The position numbers and the translations under genes were made by a program. DNA of 47,676 nucleotides. Source: Candidatus Hydrogenedentota bacterium (GTDB lineage Bacteria; Hydrogenedentota; Hydrogenedentia; Hydrogenedentales; JAGMZX01). The stretch covers positions 1-47,676 of the forward strand of contig JAKQEQ010000039.1 of assembly GCA_029556545.1 (NCBI GenBank). Reading direction: 5' to 3'. Positions 23,960 to 33,571 of the stretch are shown piece by piece; position 1 is the first letter of the stretch, and every line of letters begins with the position of its first letter. Below the pieces are notes generated by a model. It saw nothing but the letters and a program-made list of their open reading frames with translations. It was not told the DNA's origin and ran no database searches.

Positions 23960-24085
23960 TTGCGGCGGCGCACAATCCGGGGTTCTCTCGTTCCACAAGT
24001 TGAGCCGGACCGTTACCGACACGTACACTCACCGGGAGAACGGACGCGCGGGACACGGCGATCGGCTCGCCGGGGAGTATCCTTG

Positions 24086-24574
24086 ATGAGTGACTCGATA
24101 CACCACAACACAACGACCGACGGACCCCTGCTGCGCCGGTTGCGCGGCGTCATCCGATTTGCCGTGCGCGTACTCGCCGTGTTGATGACCATCGTCATCC
24201 TGTTCGGCGTAGCCGACGTGGTCTGGGTGTTGTATCAACGGCTCCTGAAAGCGCCCGTGGGTCTGCTCCAGATCAGCGACATTCTGGCGACGTTCGGCGC
24301 CTTTATCGCGGTCCTGATCGCCATCGAGATCTTCGAGAACATCACGGTCTACCTGCGCGACGACGTCATCCACGTCAAGATCGTTCTGGCCACGGCGCTG
24401 ATGGCCATTGCGCGGAAGATCATCATCCTCGACCTTCAGGAGACCGAGCCGCTTCACGTGTTCGGCATTGCCGCCGTCGCGCTTGCCATGAGCATCGGCT
24501 ACTGGCTCGTCGTGCTCTACGAGAAGCAACGCGCCAAAGCCGCATCCCCGCACGGCGGCCCGAGCACGCCGTAA
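24086..24574 (+). CDS. PsiE-like (phosphate-starvation-inducible E) membrane protein
   Basis: 162 residues with four hydrophobic segments at about 23-50, 65-85, 97-115 and 125-145. The second half, with IEIFENITVYLRDDVIHVKIVL-type sequence and the ALMAIARKIIILDL block, matches the PsiE family of small inner-membrane proteins. Their biochemical role is not established. The ATG at 24086 is supported by GGGGAG 8 nt upstream; the frame is open about 70 codons earlier without a start site of similar quality. No pho box was recognised. Confidence 0.82.
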   Translation: MSDSIHHNTTTDGPLLRRLRGVIRFAVRVLAVLMTIVILFGVADVVWVLYQRLLKAPVGLLQISDILATFGAFIAVLIAIEIFENITVYLRDDVIHVKIVLATALMAIARKIIILDLQETEPLHVFGIAAVALAMSIGYWLVVLYEKQRAKAASPHGGPSTP

Positions 24575-24773
24575 GGCCGAACGCTCCGATTCCTGGACTC
24601 GCGTTCCGGGCCTGTTCTACTATCGCCATGCGCGGGCGGGGCGTCCCGCTTCGCAACACGAGTCATGAGGCCATGCAAAAATCCATCGTCAACGCACCGG
24701 AACACGCCCGCCGTTGCCTTCACGGCGCGCCCGTCGCCAACCCCGCCTCTGACGAGTACGGGAAAAACAAGCG

Positions 24774-25730
24774 GTGAAACACCTCGTGATATACCTGCTC
24801 GTGCTGGCCGCGCTGCTTTGCGGCGCGGCAGCCCGTGGCGCCGTGCTCGAACGAGGCATCCTGTCTATTCACTATCACGAGAGCGATCGCGCCACGGCCG
24901 ATCGCGCCTTGCGCATCCTCGAGGAGGCGCTTGCGGAATTCGGCGAAGAATTGCCCCACGGCGACGCGTCCATCCGCGTCATTATCGCCCACGACATCCC
25001 CACCTTCGCGGTATACGCCCGTTCCTTCGGCTCCGTCGAGGTCGCGGGCCTCGCGCGCCCGGAGGAGGGCCTCATCGTGGTGAAATCGCCGCGCCTTCGC
25101 CGGGCGCGCCAGGATTTTCGCGGCACGCTGCGCCACGAACTGGTCCACATACTCCTCGCGCGCAACACCCACCCCGATTACCTGCCCCGCTGGCTCAACG
25201 AAGGCATCTGCATGAGCCTCGCGAACGAATACTATTGGAACAGCCTCTTCCACGTCGCCCGCATGTACGTCAACAACCGCATCATCGACTACGAAGACCT
25301 CGACCTCCGGTTCCGCGCGCCCGGCGACGAAATGGCCTTCGGCGACGCCTACGCCCAGGCGCTCTCGATGACCCGCTTCATGCGCGACCGCTTCGGCGAC
25401 GACGTGTTCTGGGCGATTGTGCGCGGCACGCGCACCGACGTGCTCGGCGCGCCCCTGCGCAAATACACCGGCATGACCGTGCTCGACTTCTGGAACGCCT
25501 ACCGCGCCTCCCTGTGGAAGATCGCCCTCATCGGCATGATCGGGTCCGGATCCGTCTTCGGCATTCCCGCCATATTGCTCATCATCGCCTACTTCCGCAA
25601 GCGCTACACGAATCGCAAAGTCCTGGACCGCTGGGCCGTCGAGGAAGGCGACGAGGACCTCATCATTTCGCTCGACGACCTCGCCGAGGGCCCCTACGAC
25701 TGGGAAGAAGACGACGAGGACCGCCCTTGA
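24774..25730 (+). CDS. Membrane-anchored gluzincin-type metalloprotease (peptidase MA-like)
   Basis: 318 residues. A signal peptide at about 1-23 is followed by an extracytoplasmic domain holding the zinc motif RHELVHILLARN (His121-Glu122-x-x-His125) and the third ligand region WLNEGICMSLAN with Glu143, the gluzincin pattern of the peptidase MA family. One transmembrane helix lies at about 247-274, and a strongly acidic tail ends the protein on the cytoplasmic side. The catalytic domain therefore faces outward. The GTG start has only a weak Shine-Dalgarno sequence. The substrate is unknown. Confidence 0.85.
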   Translation: MKHLVIYLLVLAALLCGAAARGAVLERGILSIHYHESDRATADRALRILEEALAEFGEELPHGDASIRVIIAHDIPTFAVYARSFGSVEVAGLARPEEGLIVVKSPRLRRARQDFRGTLRHELVHILLARNTHPDYLPRWLNEGICMSLANEYYWNSLFHVARMYVNNRIIDYEDLDLRFRAPGDEMAFGDAYAQALSMTRFMRDRFGDDVFWAIVRGTRTDVLGAPLRKYTGMTVLDFWNAYRASLWKIALIGMIGSGSVFGIPAILLIIAYFRKRYTNRKVLDRWAVEEGDEDLIISLDDLAEGPYDWEEDDEDRP

Positions 25731-25749
25731 TTCGTGGCGGCGACGCATT

Positions 25750-25791
25750 GTCCGATCCGTCCAATCCGCCCAATCCGCCCGATCCGCCCGA
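25750..25791 (+). repeat. 9-bp GATCCGYCC-type tandem repeat, block A
   Basis: Degenerate 9-bp units (GATCCGTCC, AATCCGCCC) lie between the protease gene and the four-helix gene. The same unit recurs at 26225-26293, 26525-26597 and 26726-26774. Confidence 0.8.
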
Positions 25792-25871
25792 CTTGCACCA
25801 CCCCGCCGCGCCGCAGTACATTCAGGATCACGTGCCGCTGAACCCGTTTGCGGCGTGAAGAGAGAGGGACC

Positions 25872-26912
25872 ATGGGGAAAATCAGGAATAGCGGGGGCTA
25901 CCGTGATCTGCGCACCTTCCAGACGGCCACGGTCATCTACGACGCGACGCACCGCTTCTGCGAGCGGTTCCTCGACCCCCGCTCGCGTACCGTGGACCAG
26001 ATGATGCAGGCCGCGCGCAGCGGACGCCAGAATATCGCCGAAGGCAGTCGCGCCGCCGCGACTTCATCCCAGACCGAGCTTCGCCTCGTCAACGTAGCCC
26101 GCTCCAGCCTCGAAGAACTGCTCCTCGACTACGAGGATTTTCTGCGCCACCGCCGCCTTCCCCAGTGGCATCCCGACAGCGCCGAGGCTATGGCCGTGCG
26201 CGCCATCGCGCGGCACCACCCCCCCGATGATCCGCCCGATCCGTCCGATCCGCCCGATCCGTCCGATCCGTCCGATCTGCCCGATTCGCCCCATCAGGCG
26301 CCCACCCGCCTCGCGGACGACCGTCGCTACGACGCCTACGCGCAATGGCTCGACCATCCCGACCCGGCCATCCGCGCCAATGCGCTCCTCTGCCTCATCC
26401 ACCAGGCCAACACCCTGCTCGACCGCCAGATCGCCGCGCTCGAGCGCCAGTTTGTCGAGGAGGGCGGCTACAGCGAACAGCTCGCCGTCGCACGCCTCGC
26501 CTATCGGCGGCGAAACCGCCCTGGTCCGTCCGATCCGCCCGATCGGTCCGATCCGTCCAATCTGTCCGATCCGTCCGCTCCGTCCAATCCGTCCGACCAC
26601 ATTCCCGACTGCCCCCAGTGCGCCAAGCCCATGACACTGCGCACCGCACAGAAAGGCAAAAACGCCGGCAAACAATTCTGGGGCTGCACCGGCTACCCCG
26701 ACTGCAAAGGAATTGTCGACATCTGCCCAATCCGCCCGATCCGTCCAATCCGTCCAATCCGTCCAATCCGCCCGGTTCTCGCGACCAGCCCACCCGATTG
26801 GCCGCTCGTCCCCGGTCACTGGGCGCCGCTCCCGCCGCGCACTTGTGCCTTGCGTATCGGGCCTCCTGTGATATACTACGCGTCGGAGGAAGCAAGCGGG
26901 TGTATGGCATGA
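25872..26912 (+). CDS. Four-helix-bundle 'suffix' protein with C-terminal topoisomerase-type zinc finger
   Basis: 346 residues. Residues about 5-105 are a four-helix-bundle domain of the 23S rRNA intervening-sequence-protein type (YRDLRTFQTATVIYDATHRF, then AARSGRQNIAEGSRAAATS). A Pro/Asp/Ser linker follows, then a second helical 'suffix' domain (about 145-215, with DHPDPAIRANALLCLIHQAN), another linker, and a topoisomerase-type C4 zinc finger (CPQCAKPM ... FWGCTGYPDCKG). Nucleic-acid binding is likely. Both linkers and the IRPIRP tail are coded by the same 9-bp DNA repeat. The ATG at 25872 has a GA-rich Shine-Dalgarno sequence (GAGAGGGA). The last 45 residues look like read-through into non-coding DNA. 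Confidence 0.8.
   Translation: MGKIRNSGGYRDLRTFQTATVIYDATHRFCERFLDPRSRTVDQMMQAARSGRQNIAEGSRAAATSSQTELRLVNVARSSLEELLLDYEDFLRHRRLPQWHPDSAEAMAVRAIARHHPPDDPPDPSDPPDPSDPSDLPDSPHQAPTRLADDRRYDAYAQWLDHPDPAIRANALLCLIHQANTLLDRQIAALERQFVEEGGYSEQLAVARLAYRRRNRPGPSDPPDRSDPSNLSDPSAPSNPSDHIPDCPQCAKPMTLRTAQKGKNAGKQFWGCTGYPDCKGIVDICPIRPIRPIRPIRPIRPVLATSPPDWPLVPGHWAPLPPRTCALRIGPPVIYYASEEASGCMA
26225..26293 (+). repeat. 9-bp GATCCGYCC tandem repeat, block B (in CDS)
   Basis: About seven units translated in the Asp-Pro-Ser/Pro phase form the first linker of the four-helix protein. Confidence 0.85.
26525..26597 (+). repeat. 9-bp GATCCGYCC tandem repeat, block C (in CDS)
   Basis: About eight units, again in the Asp-Pro-Ser phase, form the linker before the zinc finger. 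Confidence 0.85.
26726..26774 (+). repeat. 9-bp GATCCGYCC tandem repeat, block D (in CDS, shifted phase)
   Basis: About five units are read one base out of phase relative to blocks B and C, giving Ile-Arg-Pro repeats after the zinc finger. Confidence 0.85.
26850..26877 (+). promoter_or_regulatory. Possible promoter reading into the cassette array
   Basis: TTGCGT (26850-26855) and TATACT (26872-26877) are 16 bp apart, with TGA before the -10 (extended -10). It lies inside the doubtful tail of the four-helix gene, about 240 bp before the first cassette border, where a cassette promoter would be useful. Confidence 0.35.
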
Positions 26913-27005
26913 GCACTCGCGGATGCACCGGGCTTGTACCCCGATCCTTGCATTACGCGGCCAAGCCATGCAGACGGTCTTGAACGAGAACACAACGCAT
27001 TGCCC

Positions 27006-27119
27006 GCGTAACGGCGGCACGCAGCCCGATGTCGGTATGCGAGCATTGCCGGAGGGGTCCTAGGCCGCGATGTTTCGCCCCAAAGGTGTTATGAAGAAAT
27101 AGCATGACCGTTGTTAGAC
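27006..27119 (+). other. attC-like site 0 (left border of the array)
   Basis: R'' GCGTAAC (27006-27012) and L'' CGGCACGC are matched by L' GCATGACCG and R' GTTAGAC (27113-27119). The site is 114 bp, within the usual size range. Pairing is imperfect, and no cassette gene lies immediately upstream. Confidence 0.5.
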
Positions 27120-27147
27120 GGCAGAGGACCGGAGGCTCAAGGGCAGA

Positions 27148-28248
27148 ATGGCATACTATCTGGACCTTTTCTCACCTGAGACCTACGAAGCGTTCGCGCG
27201 TTCGGATCGCAACATCTCCGGCTTCCGGATGCGCCACAGGAACGTCGCCAGACGGATCAATCCAGGCGACAAGTTGATCTGCTACTTGACGAGACTGTCG
27301 CGGTGGATGGGGGTTCTGGAAGTGCTCGAGGGCCCTTTTGTCGACGAGACGCCAGTCTTCTATCCTGAGAACGATCCGTTCGTTGTTCGGTTCCGCGTTC
27401 GACCTTTGGTATGGTTATCGGTGGAGAAGGCGATCCCGATCCACGAGGAGCGCGTTTGGAACGAGCTGTCGTTTACCCGCGGGCAGTCCAAGCGTTCGTC
27501 AACCTGGACTGGCAAGCTGCGGGGAAGTCTCGTTCAACTCGATGATTCGGACGGCGCCTTTCTCGAAGGTCTAGTACAGAAACAGATCGACGGTGGTGAA
27601 GCTTACCCGGTGGACCCGAACGAGTTCAGGAGGCTGGCGACGCACCGTATCCGTCGAGCGGACAAGGATGTGACGGTCACGGTCCCTGACGGGACCGGGA
27701 CAGAGGAAGAAGAGATCGGCCGGCCCGAGGTCAGGGAGTCGGCAAAGGTCCAGGCGCTCTTGGCTGAGATAGGCTCGCGGATGGGCATGCAGATCTGGGT
27801 TCCCCGGAGCGATCGCGCCACGGTGCTCGCCGAGTGGCCCGGGGATCATCCGCCCGTCCTGGAGAGGTTGCCGCTAAACTACGATGAGACCACCCTGAAG
27901 ACTATCGAGCAGATCGATGTCCTATGGCTCAAAGGCCGTGCAATCAGGCGAGCTTTCGAGGTGGAACATACAACGTCCGTGTACTCAGGAATCTTACGGA
28001 TGGCCGACCTTCTGGCTCTCCAGCCGAACATGGATATTCGGCTACACATCGTTGCCCCGACGGCTCGGCGAGAAAAGGTCTTCCAAGAACTCATGCGGCC
28101 GGTGTTCTCCCTGCTGGACCGTGGGGCACTCTCCGAAATCTGCACCTATCTTTCATATGACAGCGTGCACGAGCTCGCCGAACAGGAGCACTTGTCCCAC
28201 CTGTCGGACAGCGTGATAGAAGAATATGAGGAAACGGCCGAAACGTAA
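27148..28248 (+). CDS. EVE-domain protein with C-terminal restriction-endonuclease-like domain (cassette 1)
   Basis: 366 residues. Residues about 1-140 resemble the EVE/PUA-like fold that reads modified bases (YYLDLFSPETYEAF, then INPGDKLICYLT, then RWMGVLEVLEGPF). The C-terminal region has QIDVLWLKGRAIRRAFEVEH followed by SGILRMADLL, a PD-(D/E)XK-like core with Asp257 and Glu271-x-Glu273, where the usual Lys is replaced by Glu. Fusions of this kind occur in modification-dependent restriction, so a type IV-like defence role is possible. AAGG precedes the ATG, which lies 35 nt after the cassette border. The nuclease assignment is by pattern only, and the EVE call is the firmer half. Confidence 0.7.
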   Translation: MAYYLDLFSPETYEAFARSDRNISGFRMRHRNVARRINPGDKLICYLTRLSRWMGVLEVLEGPFVDETPVFYPENDPFVVRFRVRPLVWLSVEKAIPIHEERVWNELSFTRGQSKRSSTWTGKLRGSLVQLDDSDGAFLEGLVQKQIDGGEAYPVDPNEFRRLATHRIRRADKDVTVTVPDGTGTEEEEIGRPEVRESAKVQALLAEIGSRMGMQIWVPRSDRATVLAEWPGDHPPVLERLPLNYDETTLKTIEQIDVLWLKGRAIRRAFEVEHTTSVYSGILRMADLLALQPNMDIRLHIVAPTARREKVFQELMRPVFSLLDRGALSEICTYLSYDSVHELAEQEHLSHLSDSVIEEYEETAET

Positions 28249-28254
28249 TCTGCT

Positions 28255-28314
28255 GTCTAACAACGGCATGCAGCGAACAGCGCTGAGTGCCGCCGCTGAT
28301 GTGGAGCGTTAGCC
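28255..28314 (+). other. attC site 1 (60 bp)
   Basis: R'' GTCTAAC is at 28255-28261 and R' GTTAGCC at 28308-28314. L'' CATGCAGCG pairs with L' CGCTGATG, leaving one unpaired G, the extrahelical base expected in attC. Confidence 0.75.
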
Positions 28315-28354
28315 AGCAACGAGGGTTCTGGTGCACAGCGACAGGAGCGGGAAG

Positions 28355-29275
28355 ATGGGGCAAGAAGCCCGCATACAGCAGTCAGTAAACTCGATTCGGG
28401 CACGGCGGTCTTCGCTTGATGCCCTTTCGCGGCAGTTGCGTACCCCGAGCATCCTCGCAAGCTTTGACAAATGGCAACACACCTCCTGGTGCATTTCAGT
28501 GGCTGGTGATTCGCTCGTGCGTCTTCGGCTGTTCACGGAGCAGAACTTTAACATCGTCGAGACGATAGGCGTTGTCGCCGTTGCCAGGTACACGTTCGAA
28601 GTCTCGGTATGGCTCCGCCTATTCGCGCTGGACGGCCGCTATGGCCTTGTGTATTTTGATCAACTACTCGCGACTCAGCAACGTTTCTATGAGGACACGC
28701 TCGCTCAGCTACAACGGGAAGTGGCCTGGCTCAGGTCGTTGGGACAGAAGGAGGGCGGGGCTCATCAAAAGGTACTGAGGGACTTCGGTCCCACCGCTGC
28801 CAATGCCGGCGAAACCCAGAAGCTCGTCTCTGCTTTATCGAGCATTTCGGCAGAGATCGACGCGGAGGCAGGACGACGCTTCTCCATGTACGCAGAAGCC
28901 GCCCGAATTAACGGATACGATTTCCAGGCTTATCTGGTCGAGACCAAGGCGATCCCACCTGTGCGGCAGGCACTCGCGGACATTGCGGCTGAAAGGGACA
29001 GGTTCGACTCGAGGGTTGCACACGAGATCAAGGCCCTCCGACCGGATCGCTGGCAATGGCGGCAGATGGCACAGAAGGTGGGTCGAGCCGACGAGTACGA
29101 CTACCTGTACTCGTTCGCAAGCAAGCTGCTCCACGCGACGCCTGCGAGCATCACGACGGATCAAAAGAACTTGGAATTGCAGGAGATGGAACTCTTCCTA
29201 AAATACATCGACGTCACGATCGGTGATGTCCTGGCACTTGCTGGGGACTATCGGCCAGGAGCCGCTGCTGGCTAA
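28355..29275 (+). CDS. Helical protein of unknown function (cassette 2)
   Basis: 306 residues, predominantly helical by eye. The central VARYTFEVSVWLRLFAL segment and the C-terminal FASKLLHATPAS segment recall DUF5677-type proteins often found in mobile or defence settings; I give this as resemblance only. No transmembrane segment or nucleotide-binding motif is visible. The ATG at 28355 has AGGAG 8 nt upstream; an in-frame GTG at 28331 lacks one. The TAA stop lies inside the R'' box of attC site 2, the tight packing typical of cassettes. Confidence 0.65.
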   Translation: MGQEARIQQSVNSIRARRSSLDALSRQLRTPSILASFDKWQHTSWCISVAGDSLVRLRLFTEQNFNIVETIGVVAVARYTFEVSVWLRLFALDGRYGLVYFDQLLATQQRFYEDTLAQLQREVAWLRSLGQKEGGAHQKVLRDFGPTAANAGETQKLVSALSSISAEIDAEAGRRFSMYAEAARINGYDFQAYLVETKAIPPVRQALADIAAERDRFDSRVAHEIKALRPDRWQWRQMAQKVGRADEYDYLYSFASKLLHATPASITTDQKNLELQEMELFLKYIDVTIGDVLALAGDYRPGAAAG

Positions 29276-29335
29276 CAGGTGCGTGCACCTTCCGATCCTC
29301 TCCGCAGCCCGCAGGTGACGTGCATGATGTTAGGC
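29270..29335 (+). other. attC site 2 (66 bp)
   Basis: R'' GGCTAAC is at 29270-29276 and R' GTTAGGC at 29329-29335. L'' GTGCACCT pairs with L' AGGTGAC, again leaving one extrahelical G. The cassette 2 stop codon is inside R''. Confidence 0.75.
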
Positions 29336-29360
29336 CGATTGAACGGTGAGGAGATATGTG

Positions 29361-29849
29361 ATGCCCTACGACGTACCCCCAGACTGGCTTGATCGAGAAC
29401 TTGTTCTTGCCTTTTTCTGGAAATTCTCCGTATTTGAGTGTGCGCTGAAGCGGGAAGGATTCCTGCGGTCGGGTCGGGATGACGTTGCGCAGCCCGATTG
29501 GACTGCCTTCGGAAACTCGATCCGCGGTCGGTTCAAGACAATCAGCGATAGTCGCTTTCAGGACGCACTTGGGAACTTGAAGAGCGCCTCACCACGCCGC
29601 CAAGTCGTGCGGGATGGCCGTCTCGCATGGGAGCAGATTGGGCGCGGCAACGCGGAGTGCGAGGAGGAGTTCGTGCTTCGACTGGTCAGGACGGCCAGAA
29701 ACAATCTCTTCCACGGCGGCAAGTATCCTGACGGGCCGATCGACGAAGTGGCACGCGACAAGGCAATCCTGCGGGCCGCACTCGGTGTGCTCGACGGCTG
29801 CTACAGACTGCACCCAGGAGTTGCTCGTTGGGTCAGGGAGGCGGCATAA
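29361..29849 (+). CDS. HEPN-like protein with an RX4H motif (cassette 3)
   Basis: 162 residues. Near the C-terminus the helix RTARNNLFHGGKYPDG contains Arg113-x4-His118, the catalytic signature of HEPN ribonucleases used in toxin-antitoxin and abortive-infection systems. The N-terminal helix (ELVLAFFWKFSVFECALKRE) fits a HEPN helix 1. A metal-independent RNase acting during stress or phage infection is therefore plausible, though many HEPN proteins are inactive. No antitoxin gene lies beside it in this cassette. The ATG at 29361 has AGGAG 7 nt upstream; the GTG at 29346 overlaps that site. The stop is inside the truncated attC. Confidence 0.65.
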   Translation: MPYDVPPDWLDRELVLAFFWKFSVFECALKREGFLRSGRDDVAQPDWTAFGNSIRGRFKTISDSRFQDALGNLKSASPRRQVVRDGRLAWEQIGRGNAECEEEFVLRLVRTARNNLFHGGKYPDGPIDEVARDKAILRAALGVLDGCYRLHPGVARWVREAA

Positions 29850-29870
29850 CAAGCCGCTGCAGCCGACCGT
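29844..29870 (+). other. Truncated attC site 3 (5' half only)
   Basis: R'' GCATAAC, then AAGCCGCTGCAGCCGACCG, is a normal attC left half. No matching CGGCTG...GTTRRRY half follows within 200 bp, so the site is cut here. Confidence 0.55.
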
Positions 29871-30127
29871 TGCGGTAAATTGGGGATAACTGTTTTCTTG
29901 GAATTCCTTCCCGCGGGTATCCCTGCGTTCCCGCCGAGACAGGCGGGTGTAGCCATACCCGGGGCTGGCGCATCCTATCACCCGGCGGGGCAACAAGCGG
30001 CGGGACGTGTTTCTTGTTTCGCCCTCGTTATACCGCTTGCGGGTCCGACGATTTGGTCCAATGCGGCGGCGAGCAAGAACTGAGCGCGACTGTCCCGCAA
30101 TCGCGTCCGAGTACGTGCAATCTGTTT

Positions 30128-30353
30128 AGCCCGCCTTGGCGGGCTCTTCTTTGCACCCGCATTTATGCGGGGTGATGCGGAAACCTGCTGTAAAGCGAAG
30201 CGCGCTTCAGCGCGGCTTTACCACGGCTTCAGCATTGTTTCCATGCTGAAGGAGTTCGCCAAGCGGCGCTGAAGCGGCCTGCGCGCGGAAGAAACAGCCC
30301 CTTACACCCCGCGTGAACGCGGGTGCAAAGAGGAGCCGCGCTAAAGCGCGCTG
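30128..30353. repeat. Inverted hairpin-cluster element
   Basis: Two hairpins on the left (stem AGCCCGCC/GGCGGGCT at 30128-30145, then CCCGCAT/ATGCGGG at 30156-30171) reappear inverted on the right (at about 30305-30325 and 30334-30352), joined by the same CTTTGCACC linker. The stems keep pairing although bases differ. Between them are TAAAGC...GCTTTA enclosing CGCGC/GCGCG (30191-30220) and TTCAGCAT/ATGCTGAA (30228-30250). The left hairpin, followed by CTTCTTT, could also act as a terminator. The rest of the gap 29871-30525 holds no gene that I can support. Confidence 0.6.
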
Positions 30354-30497
30354 ACAAGTCCGGCATGCGTCTCGACAAGAAGACCCACAGCGGACCATGG
30401 CGCCCATTTGCGGATTCTTGGGCCGGTTTCCGATTAAATCGACAGACCCGCAAGCGGTGTAACGAGAAGAACGCGGGCGTATGACTTTGGTGGGGCG

Positions 30498-30529
30498 GGC
30501 GGGAGACCGGCAATAACCGGCGGGCCTAC
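30498..30529 (+). repeat. GGAGACCGG-family repeat beside the DUF2442 gene
   Basis: GCGGGAGACCGGCAATAAC resembles the copy after vapC at 35069-35087 (GCGGGAGACCGGCCATAAC). Related copies lie at 34270-34295 and 35148-35173. Confidence 0.5.
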
Positions 30530-30810
30530 TTGCGCGCCGATTCGGTCTCTTCCATCCAGGCGGGCGTGAGGCCGTAGTAGAGGACGTCCGGGTCGATGTC
30601 GGCGCCGTTTTCCCAGGCAACGGTCCCGCCCCTGACCTTGACCGCCCGGAATAGGGCCGGATCGTTCCGCAGGGGCTCGAAAATCGGGCCGTGCAGATAG
30701 GGGTCGAGGTCGATTTCCCGTGTGGTCTCGTCTTCAAAGGTGATACGCACCCTGAACGCCCGCAACGGCTCCACCGCGGCGACACGAACGCGCGGCCCAA
30801 GATTCTTCAT
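30526..30810 (-). CDS. DUF2442 protein
   Basis: 94 residues. The core RVRITFEDETTREIDLDPYL followed by GPIFEPLRNDPALFRAVKV and NGADIDPDVLYYG is characteristic of DUF2442. It starts 14 nt after the DUF4160 stop with GGGAG upstream; an alternative ATG at 30825 overlaps that stop but lacks a Shine-Dalgarno sequence. DUF4160-DUF2442 pairs are common in bacteria and have been suggested to be toxin-antitoxin-like, but the activity is unproven as far as I know. Confidence 0.85.
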   Translation of the reverse strand: MKNLGPRVRVAAVEPLRAFRVRITFEDETTREIDLDPYLHGPIFEPLRNDPALFRAVKVRGGTVAWENGADIDPDVLYYGLTPAWMEETESARK

Positions 30811-30824
30811 GGCCGGGACTCCCA

Positions 30825-31076
30825 TTATTCGAGCGGCGCAATTGCTTCCAACGGCAATTGGTCTCTCGCTCTTTCCCAATTGTCTCTCAACTCGGGCCGA
30901 TGCTCAAGCGCCCATTCGATGACCATGCCATGAGCCCGTCGAGGCAACCGGCCTCGTAGAATATCCAAGGTGTCTATGGTGTATGCGGCCTCAAATTCAC
31001 CGTATTCAGCGTGAAAATGAGGCGGCGCGTGGTCGTTGAAGTACATATAGATGGCCACGCCAAAGAACTCGCTCAC
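30825..31076 (-). CDS. DUF4160 protein
   Basis: 83 residues from the GTG at 31076. The signature IYMYFNDHAPPHFHAEYGEF, then ILRGRLPRRAHGMVIEWA, then ELRDNWERA is DUF4160. Family members usually begin MPxVSxFFG. Here an in-frame CTG at 31085 would give (M)PQVSEFFG and has AGAGG 7 nt upstream, so a CTG start is possible. It lies directly upstream of DUF2442 in a two-gene unit next to a transposase remnant. Confidence 0.85.
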   Translation of the reverse strand: MSEFFGVAIYMYFNDHAPPHFHAEYGEFEAAYTIDTLDILRGRLPRRAHGMVIEWALEHRPELRDNWERARDQLPLEAIAPLE

Positions 31077-31198
31077 TTGCGGCAGAATCGCGCCTCTGCC
31101 TGATTGAACCCATCATAACACATCGGCTTCGTAACGCTCCGCGTCACAGGCTCATCGAGACCAGCCCACGCGACGGGTACGTCCGCGTGGTGGATTAG

Positions 31199-31507
31199 TC
31201 CGGGGAAGACTATCTCTATCGGGAATCGCATTTCGTTTCCGTGCGCCTTCCGCGGACGGCGCAGCGCATCGTCGTGGAAATACTCTCCGGGATTCAAGCA
31301 TCGGGCTCGGTGCTGTTGACGGAGGTGGCGCGCGCGTTGCAGGAATCGATCGCCCTGCGCAAGACCCATATGCGGCTATCGCGCAATCTCCAGCGGCCGG
31401 AGGTCGAAGGGGTGGTTCAGGACAATGTGTTGCGCCTGGCGGCGCCGCAGGTGCTTGAGCGGCGTCGCGCGGGTATGCATGCCCGTGTGGAATCGCGGGG
31501 TCCGTAG
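31199..31507 (+). pseudogene. N-terminal remnant of an IS4-like transposase
   Basis: The open frame from 31199, with no clear start, reads VRLPRTAQRIVVEILSGIQA, then LTEVARALQESIALRKT, then RLSRNLQRP. This matches my memory of the N-terminal helical part of DDE transposases with a YGIQASGDVKL ... LSRNL pattern. It ends at a stop about 100 codons in, long before any DDE residue, so it is a decayed fragment. No terminal inverted repeats were found. The rest of 31077-31714 shows no supported gene. Confidence 0.45.
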
Positions 31508-31714
31508 CCCGTATACTACGGCTCAGTTGCATGGTTTGCGGAGAAAAGGTGATGCCGAGCGATCGTCCAGAGGCTTGTCGATGGCGTCACCCCCATTCCG
31601 CCTGATCGACGGCGCTCACCGCGCCGAATGATTCCTTTCTTTGAATCCAGGCGCCATTTCCCCCGTGAAGTCCGCGTTGTGGGGCGCAAGCAAGAAGAAG
31701 TAGGAGCGTATTGC

Positions 31715-32080
31715 GTGGAATTGGATGATTTGCTCAAATTCGACGACAAGGGCCTCGTCTGCGCCGTGGTCCAGCACTTCGAGACCGGCCAGGTGTTGAT
31801 GGTCGGCTACATGAACCGGGAGTCGCTGGATATCACGCTGCGGGAGCGGAAGGCGTGCTTCTGGTCGCGGTCGCGGCAGACGCTCTGGCTGAAGGGCGAG
31901 ACTTCGGGGCATGTGTTGCAGGTGAAGGAAATCCGCGTGGATTGCGACGGCGACGCCCTGCTCGTGAAGTGCGACCCCATCGGGCCGACGTGCCACACGA
32001 ATGAAACGAGTTGTTTCTATCGGCGCGTCGGCGATGACGGGACCGTCACCCTCGACGGGGACGGCGTTGCCCGGGAGTAG
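31715..32080 (+). CDS. hisI: Phosphoribosyl-AMP cyclohydrolase HisI
   Basis: 121 residues. It opens the adenine ring of phosphoribosyl-AMP in histidine synthesis (third step). The family motifs are complete: VGYMNRESLD, then CFWSRSRQTLWLKGETSGH, then VDCDGDALLVKCD with metal-binding Asp residues, then GPTCHTNETSCFYR. The GTG at 31715 has AGGAG upstream and starts just before the domain. The ATG at 31628 would add a basic, non-family extension with no ribosome-binding site. No HisE domain is fused. The gene is 6 nt before trpE, probably in the same transcript. Confidence 0.93.
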   Translation: MELDDLLKFDDKGLVCAVVQHFETGQVLMVGYMNRESLDITLRERKACFWSRSRQTLWLKGETSGHVLQVKEIRVDCDGDALLVKCDPIGPTCHTNETSCFYRRVGDDGTVTLDGDGVARE

Positions 32081-32086
32081 AGCATC

Positions 32087-33571
32087 ATGATTCATCCGAA
32101 CCTCGAAACATTCAGGAAACTCGCGCGTCCGGGCGCGCTCGTGCCGATCTACCGCGAGATTCTGGGCGACCTGGAGACGCCGGTGACGGCGTACCTGAAG
32201 GCGTCGCGGGGGCAGCAGTATTCGTTTCTTCTGGAGAGCGTCGAGAAGGCGGACCAGATCGGGCAATATTCGTTTCTTGGCGCGAACCCGACGATTATCT
32301 TCAAGAGCCGGGGCCGCGAGGTCTCGATAGTGCGGCGGGGCGTCGAGGAACGCTTCGAGTCGGACAACCCGCTGCGCGAACTCGAGAAGCTCATGGCGGG
32401 TTATGACCCGGTGGCGGTGGACGGCCTGCCGCCGTTCCACGGCGGCGCGGTGGGCTATATGAGTTACGACCAGGTGCGGTTCTTCGAGCGGCTGCCGGAC
32501 AAGAACCCGGACCTGCTCGGCCTGCCGGACCTGTACTTCATGATCACGGACACGATCGTCGTCTTCAATCACGTGAAGAACAAGATACAGATCGTGTCGA
32601 ACGTGCACGTGGGCGATGACCCGGAAGCGGCCTACAACGACGGGGCGCGCAAGATTCATGAACTCGAGGCGCGGCTGCGCGGGCCGCTTACCGTGACCAC
32701 CGAGCGCGTGCATTCGGGCGAAGAACCGCCGCTCACGTCGAACTTTTCCCGCGAGGAGTTTTGCGCGGCGGTGCGCGCGGCGAAGGAGTACATTTGCGCG
32801 GGCGACATCTTCCAGGTCGTGCTTTCGCAGCGGTTCGCGCGGCCCGTGAGCGCGAGTCCCGCGAACCTGTACCGGGCGCTGCGCTGCATCAACCCGTCGC
32901 CGTACATGCTCCTGCTCCAGTATCCCGAGGCGGCGATAGTCGGTTCGAGCCCCGAGGTCATGACCCAGGTGATGGGCAAGACCTGCATGGTCCGCCCGAT
33001 CGCCGGCACGCGCCCGCGCGGCGCGAACGCCGCCGAGGACCTCGCGCTCGAGCACGACCTGATGCAGGACGAAAAGGAGCGGGCCGAACACATCATGCTC
33101 GTGGACCTCGGGCGCAACGACGTGGGCCGGGTGAGCGCGCCGGGGTCGGTCGCGCCGGTGGCGAACCGGTTCATGGTCGTGGAGCGGTACTCCCACGTGA
33201 TGCATATCGTGACGGAGGTCGCCGGGGTCATGAAGGACGGGTGCAACGCCTTCGACGCCCTCGAGGCGACGTTCCCGATGGGCACGGTGAGCGGCGCGCC
33301 GAAGATTCGCGCCATGGAAATCATAGACGAACTGGAGAACGTGCGCCGGGGGCCGTACTCGGGCGGCGCGGGCTACGTAAGTTTCGGGGGCGACATGGAC
33401 ACGTGCATCCTCATCCGCACGATGGTCGTCAAGGACGGCGTGGCCCACCTGCAGGCGGGGGCGGGCATCGTCTACGACAGCGACCCCGATCGCGAATACG
33501 ACGAAACGGTCAACAAGGCGAAGGCGCTGTTCCGCGCCGTCGAGTTTGCCGAGAGAGGGCTCGAATCATGA
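32087..33571 (+). CDS. trpE: Anthranilate synthase component I TrpE
   Basis: 494 residues. It converts chorismate, with ammonia supplied by TrpG, to anthranilate, the first committed step of tryptophan synthesis. The N-terminal FLLESVEK (48-51 LLES) is the tryptophan-binding motif, implying feedback inhibition. The C-terminal chorismate-binding domain has GDIFQVVLSQRF, then PIAGTRPRG, then LVDLGRNDVGRV, then FPMGTVSGAPK, then YSGGAGYVSF. The stop overlaps the trpG start (ATGA). Confidence 0.97.
   Translation: MIHPNLETFRKLARPGALVPIYREILGDLETPVTAYLKASRGQQYSFLLESVEKADQIGQYSFLGANPTIIFKSRGREVSIVRRGVEERFESDNPLRELEKLMAGYDPVAVDGLPPFHGGAVGYMSYDQVRFFERLPDKNPDLLGLPDLYFMITDTIVVFNHVKNKIQIVSNVHVGDDPEAAYNDGARKIHELEARLRGPLTVTTERVHSGEEPPLTSNFSREEFCAAVRAAKEYICAGDIFQVVLSQRFARPVSASPANLYRALRCINPSPYMLLLQYPEAAIVGSSPEVMTQVMGKTCMVRPIAGTRPRGANAAEDLALEHDLMQDEKERAEHIMLVDLGRNDVGRVSAPGSVAPVANRFMVVERYSHVMHIVTEVAGVMKDGCNAFDALEATFPMGTVSGAPKIRAMEIIDELENVRRGPYSGGAGYVSFGGDMDTCILIRTMVVKDGVAHLQAGAGIVYDSDPDREYDETVNKAKALFRAVEFAERGLES

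Follow-up and report, generated by a model that had tools for sequence, protein, structure and literature searches.

The contig analysed here raises the question of whether a complete, single-protein restriction enzyme directed against modified DNA can be carried as one integron gene cassette. The whole stretch, 47,676 nt long and referred to below as the window, belongs to a draft Hydrogenedentota genome (6.1 Mb, 96% complete, 195 contigs), and a sequence-only reading had described one of its genes as an EVE domain fused to a nuclease-like domain within such a cassette. Our analysis makes it probable that this gene encodes a modification-dependent (type IV-like) restriction enzyme complete in one protein and carried on a mobile integron cassette. 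The computed basis for this prediction is an EVE domain, a linker and a nuclease domain with invariant D257, E271 and E273, together with purifying selection, a cassette structure, cassette-borne relatives in other phyla and the absence of a conserved partner gene. Close copies lie in cassettes of other bacterial phyla, which suggests a mobile, single-gene defence against phages, of a general type known before, in which one half of the protein probably recognises chemically modified DNA and the other half cuts it.

Table 1. Features of the cassette region, numbered from the first letter of the window
Feature	Positions	Strand	Basis
R''-like core site GTTAGAC, 5' cassette junction	27113..27119	+	sequence
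Integron gene cassette 1 (1,195 bp), starting with the TT of the R'' upstream and ending with the G of the R'' downstream	27114..28308	+	18-nt inverted repeat; end of L014 homology
GGAGG, candidate ribosome-binding site, 12 nt ahead of the start codon	27131..27135	+	sequence; putative
EVE-PD-(D/E)XK nuclease gene	27148..28248	+	366 aa, ATG start
EVE domain, residues 1-150	27148..27597	+	Z 16.5 to PH1033; profile E 2.1e-10
Disordered linker, residues 167-191	27646..27720	+	pLDDT < 50
PD-(D/E)XK-like nuclease domain, residues 191-345	27718..28182	+	PADLOC, model pLDDT 90.9, fold matches
attC of cassette 1	28253..28316	+	R1 78 bits, R2 68.8 bits; both models built partly on it
Cassette 2 gene, 314 aa, DUF5677	28331..29275	+	Pfam E 8.1e-7
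attC of cassette 2	29268..29337	+	R1 62.2 bits, R2 51.2 bits; also a model-building site
Cassette 3 gene, 167 aa, then an apparent half attC site	29346..29849	+	no Pfam or PADLOC match

Domain architecture and active site

The open reading frame proposed from the sequence was recovered exactly (Table 1), and the gene is present as a single copy in its genome. For the N-terminal half, the proposed modified-base-reader fold was borne out both by profile comparison and by predicted structure. Taken singly, the window protein matched Pfam EVE (PF01878) at E 3.3e-4 and 21.1 bits, below the gathering score of 23, the NCBIfam EVE-like model PRK00809 at E 1.8e-9, below its cut-off, and the solved EVE protein PH1033 at E 3.8e-6, while a profile of the 55-protein family reached PH1033 and a second solved EVE protein, MJECL36, with the same E-value (Table 1). 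The full AlphaFold2 model (mean pLDDT 87.6) showed the PUA-like EVE fold, superposing on PH1033 over 132 residues with an rmsd of 2.1. The chain of VcaM4I, an EVE enzyme discussed below, was reached by no profile, and no alignment placed its pocket residues on the EVE domain of the window protein. VIA-align comparison of the whole model returned almost exclusively EVE and YTH folds, and the nuclease half was therefore folded separately.

Modelled alone with 64 aligned sequences, the nuclease domain reached the pLDDT given in Table 1 and a pTM of 0.89, with the same elements as in the full model: a helix at 191-211, strands at 258-262 and 265-272, a helix at 278-291 and a strand at 298-303. D257 lies at the start of one predicted hairpin strand, and E271 and E273 lie at the end of the other, an element order and placement of D257 and E271 that match the PD-(D/E)XK nuclease arrangement. 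The core that the sequence-only reading had assigned to these three residues is thus found where it was placed, in canonical positions of a predicted alpha-beta fold with a restriction-endonuclease-like core, and the acidic residues cluster on its hairpin strands, as read from strand order and not from coordinates.

Each of the three residues is invariant across all 55 aligned full-length proteins and is kept in 64 of 64 nuclease-domain rows, nine of which carry another N-terminus. The catalytic lysine of the PD-(D/E)XK superfamily is missing throughout, since E273 occupies its position in all 55 proteins. The observation of Glu in place of Lys therefore stands; its oddity does not, as this is a documented variant, and a review of type II enzymes describes replacement of the lysine by E in some of them, BamHI among them (PMC4081073). 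We had entertained this substitution as the mark of a dead enzyme, and that idea was dropped in view of the BamHI precedent, which leaves E273 as no argument against activity. It is the feature that would favour a protein inactive as a nuclease, either a DNA- or RNA-binding regulator or an enzyme with a degenerate active site; the invariance of D, E and E, the low dN/dS and the same Glu in BamHI all speak against this, and we regard it as very unlikely. A catalytically competent modification-dependent enzyme accounts better for these observations.

Several comparisons bear on how close the nuclease half stands to known restriction enzymes. The PADLOC model REase_II (PDLC03534) matched the C-terminal half at E 2.3e-13 through its positions 175-323 of 351, with the EVE half lying outside the match. 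The best VIA-align match of the nuclease half alone was the small subunit of R.BspD6I (Z 8.1, rmsd 4.2, 143 residues), and lower rows held the nickase N.BspD6I, BstEII, Bse634I, FokI, SgrAI, Cfr10I, BamHI and OkrAI. By a manual count of titles, 35 of the 50 matches listed were restriction enzymes or other nucleases, seven were clearly unrelated proteins and eight were other or uncharacterised proteins. In Foldseek the best match was BsaWI at E 0.016, with none at or below 0.001. The modelled nuclease half would accordingly resemble restriction enzymes at modest scores. Sequence profiles of this half reached no convincing solved structure, a comparison of the 64 nuclease-domain members with Pfam and NCBIfam gave no convincing family match, and an HNH domain was matched by no Pfam model in the window protein at E up to 10.

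These matches also bear on whether the target is DNA. In an RNA-directed defence nuclease, the EVE domain would recognise RNA that is modified or foreign, and RNA cleavage or cell arrest would fall to the C-terminal domain; published accounts propose that EVE domains of other families bind modified RNA and predict that some type IV relatives (CoCoNuTs) target RNA, and CRISPR ancillary nucleases are also among the VIA-align matches listed. Most fold matches, however, are DNA restriction enzymes, and some plasmid records label the nuclease half a restriction endonuclease; we regard an RNA-directed role as unlikely.

Cassette boundaries, attC sites and integrases

Two arms of an 18-nt inverted repeat, 94% complementary, lie on either side of the open reading frame (27108-27125 and 28249-28266) and form an R''/R' pair as expected of one cassette. 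The attC site of cassette 1 starts 5 nt past the stop codon, giving the arrangement that defines a cassette, one open reading frame followed by an attC with matching R''/R' ends. Its bottom strand (28253-28316) folded better than shuffled sequences (z -3.15). BLASTN homology to the relative at locus L014 spans the gene and its attC and ends at 28319, at the recombination point.

Bacterial and archaeal genomes were scanned for the protein, and 80 of the 176 relatives found were retained. Five attC sites, of which two belong to the window, two to L012 and one to L014, served to build a covariance model, R1, with which we scanned the window and 82 loci, namely the 80 retained relatives plus L002 and L003. 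Since the window site is among the five model-building sites, its R1 score arises partly by construction. Beyond those five sites, the two best matches lay no more than 20 nt ahead of the gene at L048 (E 0.01) and no more than 3 nt past the stop codon at L087 (E 0.045), and these unseen sites lend independent support to the attC assignment. A wider model, R2, was built partly from R1 matches, so that R2 scores at those sites arise by construction while the R1 values there are independent. Over the window's own genome, R2 recovered both window sites together with a further pair on contig C39 (E 3.7e-4 and 0.084).

The 5' side and the integrase are less clear. No convincing attC was seen by eye on the 5' side of cassette 1, where the fold of 27005-27121 was no better than shuffles (z -0.81), which leaves an attI or a decayed attC as possible identities of the 5' junction. 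No integron integrase in the genome exceeded the TIGR02249 cut-off, the best match scoring 85 against 265 bits. This result fits the pattern of an attC cluster without an integrase (CALIN). Among the five genomes of attC-flanked relatives, all five had R2 attC matches and two had an integron integrase over the cut-off, one of these two matches starting at a contig edge and containing a stop. Across the 68 genomes of the phylum, attC matches at E 0.001 (R2) occurred in ten and an integrase over the cut-off in one.

The proposed cassette carriage was thus upheld by the inverted repeat, the attC and the end of the L014 homology, while an integrase over the cut-off and a convincing 5' attC did not appear. 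Both gaps would be expected if the attC-like sites were chance or non-integron repeats beside an ordinary chromosomal defence gene, and two of the five folded attC sites, the second window site (29268-29337) and that of L014, were indeed no better than shuffles. Against this, such sites were found independently beside relatives, homology to L014 stops at the recombination point, integrases occur in two of the five genomes of attC-flanked relatives, and attC sites recur within the phylum. We consider chance repeats highly improbable and retain the integron cassette.

Other features of the region and genome were noted in passing. On contig C39, a gene with Mrr_N and Mrr_cat domains (G000:C39:21774-23442, equivalent to L097:2275-3943; Mrr_cat E 4.8e-37) is flanked by the two attC-like sites mentioned above, and it may be a second type IV enzyme carried as a cassette in this genome. 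Directly past the cassette array, positions 30024-30466 hold nested inverted repeats with arms of 31-33 nt that are 88-90% complementary. The window open reading frame at 25848-26912 encodes long Asp-Pro-Ser-type repeats between a part resembling the 23S rRNA intervening-sequence type and a topoisomerase-type zinc ribbon. An Rfam scan of positions 24000-33000 found nothing above any family threshold.

Relatives, spread and neighbouring genes

Relatives occur across many phyla and in one archaeon (L079). Focusing on the window's own phylum, the protein was matched in four of 68 genomes, its own included; two of the others hold full-length matches (G058, 45% identical, and G005, 40%), and in G048 the match is confined to the nuclease half. 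The protein of G058, a genome of the same order, is identical to that of L085, and the gene is absent from one other genome of the same genus that was searched. Near relatives adjoining an attC come from Armatimonadota (L014, 81% identical to the window protein), Binatota (L012, 79%) and bacterium HR30 (L048). In a tree of 67 proteins, the window protein pairs with L014 (support 99/86) within a five-member set (99/93) that also holds L012, L048 and L013. Four of these five, the window included, are attC-flanked; L013, from Gemmataceae, is not. The attC-flanked label required four changes on the tree, a number equalled or beaten by five of 500 shuffles. Pairwise divergence was dN 0.107 and dS 0.98 against L014, and dN 0.14 and dS about 1.7 against L012; judged by these substitution rates, the cassette copies are old transfers under purifying selection.

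An attC stands beside the gene in only five of the 82 loci scanned (L012, L014, L048 and L087 by covariance model, and L018 by script only), which led us to abandon the idea that cassette carriage is universal for this gene. At L048:4720-5433, in bacterium HR30, a cassette copy in a three-attC array is shortened to 237 aa and has lost the nuclease core, a case of cassette decay. No viral copies were found in IMG/VR or among GenBank phages. The plasmid search returned 174 records, 64 of them from Enterococcus; none covered 80% of the protein, and in the 30 matches listed the nuclease half alone was aligned.

The nuclease is also found behind other N-termini. At nine loci (L054, L057, L058, L060, L062, L066, L071, L072 and L081) a nuclease 60-69% identical to that of the window follows a different N-terminus, and the four of these N-termini compared with Pfam gave no convincing match. 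A third architecture, 31-36% identical and with yet another N-terminus in which a stretch resembles a helix-hairpin-helix by eye, occurs in Hydrogenedentota (L004) and on two Proteobacterial plasmids (L010 and L011). Since one nuclease stands behind at least three N-terminal types, we regard it as a re-used module. The nuclease adjoins type I restriction genes at L057 and L071, and a DruE-like helicase at L054.

For the immediate neighbours of the 80 relatives, 148 of 154 open reading frames were scanned, six being omitted. No PADLOC model was matched by more than three of the 148, and none of the 25 Pfam families listed, out of 113, was matched by more than two; among them are two DNA methyltransferase families with one match each. 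A methyltransferase partner is accordingly not conserved among the neighbours of the EVE-nuclease relatives, and the two downstream cassette genes in the window had no PADLOC match, so that no cognate methyltransferase was seen alongside, as in type IV systems. Defence genes were scattered among the neighbours, including GajA, BrxL, type I and type III restriction genes and MmeI, a pattern that fits a stand-alone enzyme in defence surroundings.

The neighbourhoods also weigh on a sequence-specific, type II-like enzyme, whose host would be protected by a methyltransferase encoded elsewhere and whose EVE domain would merely aid DNA binding. Both PADLOC and the plasmid annotation name the nuclease 'type II', relatives with another N-terminus adjoin type I methyltransferase or restriction genes, and two C5-methyltransferase-like matches lie elsewhere in the window's own genome. 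The EVE form itself, however, has no conserved methyltransferase adjoining it, and travel as a lone cassette would presumably be lethal if a cognate methyltransferase were required. We give such a type II-like enzyme only a small chance, and the modification-dependent enzyme remains the preferred reading.

Proposed mechanism and comparison with known systems

In the mechanism we envisage for this modification-dependent enzyme, the EVE domain would read incoming DNA by flipping out a modified base, in the manner of the EVE-HNH enzyme VcaM4I, and the nuclease domains would pair and cut both strands nearby with Mg2+, with E273 standing where BamHI, too, has Glu instead of the usual lysine. The enzyme would then destroy phage or plasmid DNA whose bases are modified and spare host DNA that lacks the mark. 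Cleavage of modified DNA by the cassette enzyme is what we infer from its domains. An enzyme of this kind can do without a methyltransferase to protect the host, and it therefore fits a single-gene cassette.

A plausible but tentative extension, to which we give slightly less than an even chance, is that integrons spread a one-gene type IV family between phyla and serve as a store of modified-base readers, with the D...ExE module placed behind different sensors. Type IV enzymes would lend themselves to such spread because each is complete in one cassette, unlike a restriction-modification pair. The same extension includes two separate integrase-less attC clusters in this genome, each with a type IV enzyme (the EVE-nuclease and Mrr). 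Phages can conceal their DNA by modifying its bases, and type IV enzymes are a defence against such phages. A one-cassette version, 79-81% identical across phyla, would join the defence stores of integrons to EVE-guided restriction, and a single nuclease with at least three N-terminal types offers a compact family for asking how the sensor sets the target. What is new here is a nuclease module that is absent from Pfam and NCBIfam and fused to at least three N-termini, along with its cassette carriage in several phyla.

Among the papers listed by our literature search, none described this nuclease family or its carriage on cassettes, and none reported that one of its enzymes restricts phage. 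Where 'EVE domain' and 'integron' came up together, the source was a review whose EVE passages leave integrons out. Integrons as stores of phage-defence cassettes have themselves been reviewed for Vibrio and for mobile integrons (PMC12409362), and the window shares with them the presence of defence genes as cassettes beside attC sites; it differs in its Hydrogenedentota host without an integrase, and in an EVE enzyme that goes unnamed in the review's passages on such cassettes.

Among characterised enzymes, BamHI and similar PD-(D/E)XK enzymes with E for K share the D...ExE core and the core topology with the window protein (BamHI and OkrAI at Z 5.7-5.9 to its nuclease half), whereas they are type II, paired with a methyltransferase and without a reader domain. 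VcaM4I, described as an EVE-HNH modification-dependent endonuclease in which the EVE domain performs base flipping (PMC7897488), has the same plan of N-terminal EVE reader, linker and C-terminal nuclease; its nuclease is HNH, whereas that of the window protein is PD-(D/E)XK-like, with no HNH, which places it outside the EVE-HNH group. A further close counterpart is the EVE-PD(D/E)XK class of predicted type IV enzymes reported by Bell, Wolf and Koonin in 2020 (PMC7641849), so the architecture was already known before this locus. The two-domain plan and the predicted modification-dependent restriction are shared with that class, which may already include this nuclease family; cassette carriage is a difference, as the paper names none and the word 'integron' occurs 0 times in its main text.
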